39,945 nt of DNA, taken from the NCBI GenBank assembly GCA_018266075.1, contig JAFEBB010000068.1, positions 1 through 39,945 of the forward strand. Reading direction: 5' to 3'. Positions 39,022 through 39,945 of this stretch are shown piece after piece (the first letter of the stretch is position 1; every line of letters starts with the position of its first letter). A program made the position numbers and the translations under genes. The notes under the pieces are model-generated. The model searched no databases, was not told the origin of the DNA, and saw nothing but the letters and a program-made list of their open reading frames with translations. The DNA is from Deltaproteobacteria bacterium (lineage in GTDB: Bacteria > Myxococcota > Myxococcia > Myxococcales > SZAS-1).

Positions 39022-39200
39022 CCCGTGAAACGTGTGCTTCGCGTCCTCGGCCGCGTGGAGGTTCGACGACTGGAACGAATCGAGGTGCCCTACCAGCAGG
39101 TGGTGGTTCTCGCCCGGCTTCCCTTCTTCGTTCTCGCAGAGCGTGATCAGGTTGCGCGGATCTCGCTCGAGCTCTCTCCGTCCGGGTGGAGCGGGACGAC
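39022..39200 (-). pseudogene. Relic of an HNH endonuclease
   Basis: In one minus-strand frame 39165-39022 encodes RDPRNLITLCENEEGKPGEN followed by HHLLVGHLDSFQSSN, which matches the C-terminal half of HNH nucleases (E-L-x-x-D-P-x-N-L-I-T-L-C ... H-L-x-x-GHL). The preceding VVPLHPDG piece (39200-39177), which belongs just before it, is in another frame, and the expected HH pair there reads RQ. There is no start codon with a ribosome site and no natural stop: the frame runs into the antisense of the lipoprotein gene. A frameshifted, truncated remnant is the simplest reading. The rest of the 38995-39290 gap holds nothing else that I can support apart from a hairpin. Confidence 0.5.
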
Positions 39201-39238
39201 CTGACGCACCGCGGTCTCCTCGGGCTGCACAGACCCGA

Positions 39239-39268
39239 AGGGCGCCGCTCCGGCGAGCGCGGCGCCCT
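39239..39268 (-). terminator. Hairpin terminator after the 90-aa gene
   Basis: AGGGCGCCGC (39239-39248) pairs perfectly with GCGGCGCCCT (39259-39268) across a 10-nt loop. On the minus strand it lies 22 nt after the stop at 39291. The following TTCGGGTCTG is only weakly T-rich. Confidence 0.55.
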
Positions 39269-39290
39269 GTCGTTCCCTGCAACCGGAGCA

Positions 39291-39563
39291 TCAGTGCGAA
39301 GCCCCGTTCGTCATCGGGTCACCCGGCGCGGCCCCGTTCGGCGGCGCCGCGGCGGTGCTCGCGGGCGTGCTTGGCTGCGCCACCGCCGCGGAGGTCGCTG
39401 CGTCGAAGGGCTCCACCTGCGACCTCAGCGCCGTGAGCAGGCTGGCCGGGTCGTACGACTGGCCGTCGATGATGAACGACTGCCCGCTCGTCAGCGTGGC
39501 CTGCACCCCGTGGATGAGCTGGTTGAGCTTGTGGTCAAGCGTCTCTGCGGTCCTGGTCGACAT
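39291..39563 (-). CDS. Hypothetical 90-residue protein
   Basis: The ATG at 39563 has GGGGAG 7 nt upstream, which supports translation. The first 55 residues form a short helix (TAETLDHKLNQLIHGVQATL) and the segment SFIIDGQSYDPASLLTAL; the rest is a low-complexity Ala/Pro/Ser tail. The 'idGqsY-x-x-xxL-x-xL' core is reminiscent of small phage structural or assembly proteins, but this is only an impression. It is followed by a hairpin terminator and the HNH relic. Function unknown. Confidence 0.55.
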   Translation of the reverse strand: MSTRTAETLDHKLNQLIHGVQATLTSGQSFIIDGQSYDPASLLTALRSQVEPFDAATSAAVAQPSTPASTAAAPPNGAAPGDPMTNGASH

Positions 39564-39615
39564 GGCACGACTCCCCGGTCGTGTTCAGCGGCTGGGCACT
39601 GGGCTTCGCTGCGGT

Positions 39616-39634
39616 GTTGAGCGAAATGCTCAAC
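39616..39634. promoter_or_regulatory. Inverted repeat GTTGAGC-N5-GCTCAAC
   Basis: Perfect 7-bp arms around GAAAT, 53 bp upstream of the ATG at 39563. It could be an operator or a small hairpin in the leader of the 90-residue gene. Confidence 0.45.
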
Positions 39635-39748
39635 GGACCAGGTCCAAAGCAGGCGCCGTGCCACCCCGCCGGCACCGCCGAAGTTGCTGGAAGTCGTCAT
39701 GGAAGCGGAAGTGCCCGCTCCCCGAGCAGGCCTTCTTCGTGGCTTCGT

Positions 39749-39763
39749 TTCCGCACTGCGGAA
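39749..39763. repeat. Palindrome TTCCGCA-C-TGCGGAA, copy 1
   Basis: A perfect 15-bp palindrome with 7-bp arms and a single central base. The same sequence, on the other strand, recurs 103 bp to the right. Confidence 0.65.
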
Positions 39764-39850
39764 TTCGTGAGGAGCGGGGGCAGCGATGCCAACAGCGCGA
39801 AAGCTCAGCAAAAGGAACCCAGGGGGCCATCTGGACGCGGTGCGGGCGCC

Positions 39851-39867
39851 ATTCCGCAGTGCGGAAT
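39851..39867. repeat. Palindrome ATTCCGCA-G-TGCGGAAT, copy 2
   Basis: The core TTCCGCAGTGCGGAA (39852-39866) is the reverse complement of copy 1, with one more pair on each side. Two identical dyads about ten helical turns apart suggest binding sites of one dimeric protein, or copies of a small dispersed repeat. Confidence 0.65.
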
Positions 39868-39945
39868 GACCGAGCCTCGCGAGAGGGATTCCATTCAATA
39901 GAAGCGACAATCGATAACGTCGCCTGTCGTGTCCGTGGGATGGAG

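Follow-up and report, generated by a model that had tools for sequence, protein, structure and literature searches.

The window analysed here, a stretch of 39,945 nucleotides, is the entire contig C68 in a draft assembly of 7.84 Mb and 166 contigs, and its sequence ends at position 39945. Genome sizes, GC content and gene types point to a myxobacterium. Close to this end lie two exact copies of a 15-bp palindrome, TTCCGCANTGCGGAA, at positions 39749–39763 (dyad 1, TTCCGCACTGCGGAA) and 39852–39866. An earlier note on this DNA had reported the pair and placed it in a non-coding region, and both statements hold: the copies are mutual reverse complements with a start-to-start distance of 103 bp, and they lie 5′ of a minus-strand gene, in a frame without coding-like GC3 bias. 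The second copy is the core of a longer feature (dyad 2), a perfect 19-bp palindrome, CATTCCGCAGTGCGGAATG, at 39850–39868; neither dyad is assigned to a strand. Palindromes of this build, perfect over 7-bp arms around a 1-bp spacer, are common in DNA of this composition, the window holding 8 against a mean of 7.45 in 300 first-order Markov resamplings, and with up to three mismatches to the 15-mer allowed there are 4 matches where 2.34 are expected. A palindrome pair with identical arms arose in 8 of the 300 resamplings, and one lying within 300 bp in a single resampling. What is unusual about the dyads is only their exactness and nearness, not their number.

The gene that they precede (39291–39563, minus strand, start at 39563) was called from its open reading frame and from alignment, and encodes a 90 amino acid protein (P0001) that is a shortened member of an expanded family of basic proteins. 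Full-length homologues in the same genome, on contigs C75, C85 and C5, have 211, 218 and 236 amino acids; aligned with these and with three homologues from genomes G008 and G019, P0001 retains the N-terminal part and the C-terminal tail and is missing the basic middle. In outline the gene resembles an internal deletion of a ~210 amino acid family gene (window 39291–39563). It may be a real deletion or it may be an assembly chimera, the latter because contigs that carry members of this family end within the gene. A profile built from these seven sequences found matches in 5 of the 146 genomes of the order, with at least 13 in the home genome (G000), at least 21 each in G008 and G019, at least 12 in G014 and at least two in G003, scoring having covered up to 21 candidates in each genome. 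For P0001 to P0007 no Pfam family passed its cut-off, and NCBIfam likewise gave none; the weak matches, two in Pfam and three in NCBIfam, were at E 0.037–0.051. PHROGs gave no match for P0001 to P0005, and the family profile matched no chain in the PDB. The possible phage-like small gene of the earlier note is this same gene, and a phage origin was rejected: P0001 matched no PHROG and had no relatives in collections of viral contigs, plasmids or phages, and the DNA matched no phage. Plasmid DNA gave two short matches covering 6–10% of the query.

Beyond the 3′ end of the gene, window 39129–39413 matches contig C32 at 88%, and contigs C81 and C16 begin with sequence that matches parts of 39205–39365 at 84–85%. 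The portion at 39129–39290, where an HNH relic had been noted, is common to C32 at 88%. A hairpin with 10-bp arms (39239–39268, minus strand) lies in the stretch common to C32, C16 and C81; it is terminator-like, has no T run and is absent from the terminator-scan list. Rfam returned no match to a known RNA in 39200–39945.

Promoters read by sigma-54 share the consensus TGGCACN5TTGCW, of 11 letters. We scored upstream regions against this consensus, with GG and GC obligatory. On the minus strand at 39663–39648 stands a candidate -24/-12 element of this type, TGGCACGGCGCCTGCT, which has 10 of the 11 consensus letters, a score reached in 1 of 2000 random 300-nt windows, and which lies 100 nt 5′ of the ATG. 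Transcription from it is predicted to start near 39637; counted from there, dyad 1 is centred near -118 and dyad 2 near -221. Against an expectation of roughly 80–200 bp upstream for two-fold sites the distances fit, the second at the far edge. The predicted 5′ leader contains an inverted repeat, GTTGAGC-ATTTC-GCTCAAC (39616–39634, minus strand).

Part of this arrangement is duplicated elsewhere in the genome. The first 472 nucleotides of contig C73 are an 85% copy of window 39454–39945, including the first 36 codons of the gene, and all 19 bases of the leader inverted repeat are kept in it. Dyad 1 is unchanged in the copy, dyad 2 (C73:401–415) has one mismatch, and the two are 104 bp apart. 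One difference in 30 dyad bases, set against 15% divergence overall (p ~0.05), is weak evidence, from one paralogue, that the dyads may be under constraint. Beyond the shared part, C73 carries a degenerate tandem array of 42-bp units (L063, G000:C73, 477–1093); next to it, on the minus strand at 1072–797, is what resembles, by eye, the N-terminal part of an IS3/IS481-type transposase.

Outside this pair the dyad sequence itself is scarce. The earlier note had allowed that the palindromes might belong to a dispersed repeat family, and a genome-wide count of the 15-mer gives three exact sites, the two in the window and C73:297–311. Because the sole other exact copy in the genome thus lies in an 85% identical paralogous segment, the 15-mer is not a dispersed repeat family. 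REP and BIME elements are dispersed intergenic palindromes, and the dyads resemble them in being intergenic palindromes; they differ in that the 15-mer has only three exact copies, all in one paralogue pair, and in that the palindrome is a different one at each family locus, and a REP-like origin was rejected. The looser pattern TTCCGCN{0,15}GCGGAA occurs at 15 sites genome-wide against 18 for the reversed control. With up to two mismatches to the 15-mer there are 25 sites (four of them from the duplicated segment) against 13 for the control, a mild excess that leans toward the idea of a repeat or shared site. Thirteen of the 25 were checked for GC3, of which ten lie in coding-like frames and three, in the window, C73 and C58, outside them; a shared regulon operator is unsupported by these counts. 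On C58, ATTCCGCACCGAGGAAT and GATTCCGCACCGCGGAATC stand 42 bp apart within a 42-bp repeat, 5′ of another gene that is not a profile match and that has a sigma-54-like element with 9 of 11 letters at -94. This pair is possibly a cousin site of the window dyads. The first 95 nucleotides of C58 resemble the ends of C51, C102, C45 and C96, where no family gene was matched.

Among relatives, 59 further genomes from the order were searched for the 15-mer, and one has it, in a coding-like frame. Conservation of the copies in close relatives, on which the earlier note had set some weight, is therefore lacking for the dyad sequence; the architecture, as set out below, does recur in relatives with other palindromes. 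A search of 84,980 species for the paired dyads gave one match, in Salinivibrio siamensis, in a duplicated tRNA stretch with a spacing also of 103 bp. This match looks unrelated, the equal spacing being taken as coincidence, and the paired dyads were rejected as a widespread site; in that genome the pair (L091, 6467–6584) sits inside a tandem duplication beside tRNA-like sequence. The single 15-mer occurs in at least 120 viral stretches, which we judge to be near chance.

The sigma-54-like element is a recurrent feature of the family in the home genome. In the first five copies (window, C73, C75, C85 and C5) it scores 10 and lies 84–101 nt 5′ of the gene. As these five copies prompted the sigma-54 idea, the set found later with the profile (C28, C109, C10, C8, C73b, C13 and C4) is the fairer test, and here five of the seven score at least 9, against 3.1% of random 450-nt windows. 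Over all home genes tested (12 profile matches and C58) the element, at 9 or more of 11 letters, is present in 11 of 13. Elsewhere it is found in 2 of 2 copies in G003, 3 of 6 in G014, 3 of 12 in G019 and 1 of 14 in G008, the G008 rate being no better than chance; of 77 control stretches, two reached 9. The upstream tests left out C32 (5′ end missing), L313 (a partial match) and L326 (too short) and included C58, although it is not a profile match. In the other four genomes, 34 copies were tested among the 56 matches listed. C4 is itself a partial match (profile 122–186), and for this reason its upstream region is probably not the true one.

A second feature of the family is tandem repetition upstream of the gene, with periods of 21, 42 or 63 bp and often with palindromic units. 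Self-similarity was scored at lags of 21 and 42 in the flanks of 47 genes, as far as 1100 nt in either direction, with a threshold of 0.2. Upstream regions reached it in 27 of the 47 cases (8 of 13 at home, 19 of 34 in the other genomes); none of 30 scorable downstream stretches did so, against 17 of 30 for the upstream regions of the same genes. When the lag was left free and at least 50% identity required, 29 of 45 upstream regions qualified, 28 of them at multiples of 21, against 5 of 28 downstream, none at a multiple of 21. In 19 larger regions (12–19 kb, some picked for their arrays) we found 11 strong arrays, all upstream of a family gene; at the same threshold these regions held no strong array away from a family gene, and eight of them held none at all. 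No array was found at 20 other contig starts. Four of 20 internal 20-kb stretches passed a lower threshold, two in coding-like frames and two outside; of the two outside, one lies 5′ of the C5 family gene. Arrays of the same build also occur on C120, C92, C62, C7 and C3 with no family gene matched. Several G008 copies have near-perfect arrays and no sigma-54-like element. Coding heptads were rejected as an explanation in place of DNA phasing, codon-position bias over 23 arrays being marginal (combined p 0.046), and single arrays may still be of that kind. In the window, the best self-similarity lag of 39690–39945 is 103, that is, the dyad spacing; with no 21/42-bp period there, an origin of this stretch as a decayed 21/42-bp array is unsupported. 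A full-text search of the literature, mostly outside subscription journals and judged by titles and the starts of abstracts, returned no description of palindromic arrays with a 21/42-bp period 5′ of the members of a bacterial gene family.

The words from which the arrays are built are mostly private to each locus; when upstream regions were compared pairwise, similarity of any kind was seen in 18 of 1081 cases. The array word is TGGTATCGCGATACCA on C109, GGCTAACGCGTTAGCC on G014:C55 and GCTCAAGAAGCCTTTCTTGAGC on C13; closer to the promoter there are two copies of GAAGGGTCATTTCGACCCTTC on C85 and three of GCCGTGCTTTYCACGGC on C8. By eye, C109 (L336, 14110–14330) has three imperfect GATCAAATTGATC-like dyads near the promoter, which a strict search had missed, besides its distal TGGTATCGCGATACCA array. 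Repeated palindromes between -400 and -60 were found at 5 of 13 home copies and 7 of 34 others, compared with 4 of 400 random windows of the home genome; for C10, 10 of 200 shuffles produced one as well. The palindromic character of 29 arrays is above that of a null in which the centre is chosen anew each time (mean pairing 0.62 against 0.55, z 9.2), and under the same null compensatory change within dyads is not above chance (z 0.9).

Candidate activators were called by motif and Pfam, with six-frame motif matches in open reading frames of 56, 75 and 93 codons excluded. Genes for sigma-54 activators lie within ~1.2 kb upstream of a family gene in 3 of 19 regions: C85 (FHA and sigma-54 domains), G008:C41 (the same two domains) and C109 (a sigma-54 domain with an HTH of the Fis type), the activator genes at G008:C41 and C109 being truncated where their contigs end. 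On C120 an FHA activator stands beside an array, with no family gene matched. The background for the motif was one in a 400-kb internal sample, and by motif no activator gene is present in the window (up to its right end, 39945) or in C73:1–15000.

Taken together, these results suggest, with a probability of about 0.5, that the dyads are enhancer-like upstream activating sites for a dimeric sigma-54 activator serving the minus-strand gene that starts at 39563. The twin dyads, the -24/-12 element, the distances between them, the palindromes and 21/42-bp arrays at many family loci, and the activator genes beside three of these loci all support this reading. It is weakened by the G008 copies, mostly without the promoter element where arrays are strong; by the survival of the dyad word in one paralogue only; by the lack of a visible activator beside the window copy; by the 103-bp spacing of the window pair, outside the 21/42-bp period; by the arrays that exist without a family gene; and by compensatory change no higher than chance. 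The earlier note had proposed a regulatory pair with possible looping and had named an IclR-type operator as one form of it. The regulatory part stands as our best reading, by way of the sigma-54-type promoter and the family-wide upstream architecture, and a pair of sites at such a promoter appears preferable to an IclR operator. An FHA or Fis-HTH type of activator, as encoded beside three other family loci, would bind the dyads, oligomerise and loop to the sigma-54 polymerase. Each family copy would have a site specificity of its own, which would permit separate control of the paralogues, and with a repeat unit as long as two helical turns, units could be gained or lost while the site kept to one side of the helix.

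There are parallels for such an arrangement. In Pseudomonas aeruginosa, three tandem 18-bp palindromic GcsR sites with 7-bp arms lie upstream of the sigma-54 promoter of gcvH2, and the likeness to our loci is in the tandem palindromic sites 5′ of a promoter of this type; that system has a single word for a single operon, and a proven activator (PMC4894688). Here, in contrast, each paralogue has another word, arrays can run to ~20 units, periods are multiples of 21 and the sites are predicted ones. For Nla28 of Myxococcus xanthus, the source places activator dimer sites typically 80–150 bp upstream of the -12/-24 region, a range that dyad 1 of the window fits, and describes 8-bp tandem half sites common to a regulon (PMC7910581), whereas the sites here are palindromes of 15–19 bp confined to one paralogue pair.

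The dyads could instead be operators of some other regulator, a repressor or an activator, with the sigma-54-like element incidental or secondary. They are ordinary-looking two-fold sites, private palindromes require only some DNA-binding dimer, and the strong arrays of G008 mostly manage without the element. An incidental element sits poorly with the position and score fixed in 11 of 13 home genes, against 3.1% by chance, and with the activator genes beside three loci, and we regard this alternative as rather unlikely, if far from negligible.

It is more doubtful still that the family protein itself binds the repeats, or that they form a self-specific, iteron-like nucleoprotein array of which the dyads are a residue. 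Plasmid iterons are tandem repeats that adjoin a small rep gene, span roughly two helical turns each and are private to the replicon. The family arrays likewise have a unit of two helical turns, adjoin a small gene and are private, the protein being small and basic. The differences are that neither Pfam nor NCBIfam finds a DNA-binding or Rep domain in the family, that the window protein is without the basic middle and yet its dyads are intact, and that the family's many copies are scattered across contigs of one genome. A plasmid iteron/Rep system proper was rejected, P0001 to P0007 having no Rep initiator or other Pfam family above cut-off and P0001 no plasmid match.

That slippage or recombination merely left the repeats behind, with no regulatory role for them, seems improbable to a further degree; the arrays do vary widely in copy number and sequence, and some occur without a family gene, but slippage alone does not predict their restriction to the upstream side, their multiples of 21 or their palindromic character. 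Mere chance is the least credible origin, for whilst about seven palindromes of such build are expected per window and the 15-mer is unconserved across the order, one resampling among 300 gave an identical pair within 300 bp, a paralogue that is 15% diverged overall preserves 29 of the 30 dyad bases, and repeated palindromes recur before other family copies.

Setting these alternatives beside the reading of the dyads as upstream activating sites, we would tentatively extend the latter to the family as a whole. The loci may possibly be copies of a chromosomal multi-copy module for small basic proteins, each with a private, fast-changing palindromic array locked to double turns (21/42/63 bp) and acting as a length-variable, phase-preserving enhancer or as a self-recognition array; such an array would be the paralogue's own address, and the twin dyads one such address. 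If this is so, it may account for some of the contig ends of the assembly falling at such arrays. A bacterial gene family would then be wired copy by copy through private activator sites that change in steps of two helical turns, and would offer a natural test bed for the co-evolution of sites and activators and for selection on helical phase in tandem repeats.

Two further observations concern arrays with no family gene matched. On C3 near 59.2 kb (L266, 9220–9380, G000), an intergenic 21/42-bp array stands before a short gene that is HTH-like by eye. Palindromic 42-bp arrays occupy contig ends on G000:C92, C62 and C7 (the end of L236, the start of L237 and the end of L233, respectively), and the 42-bp units of C92 and C62 are nearly identical.
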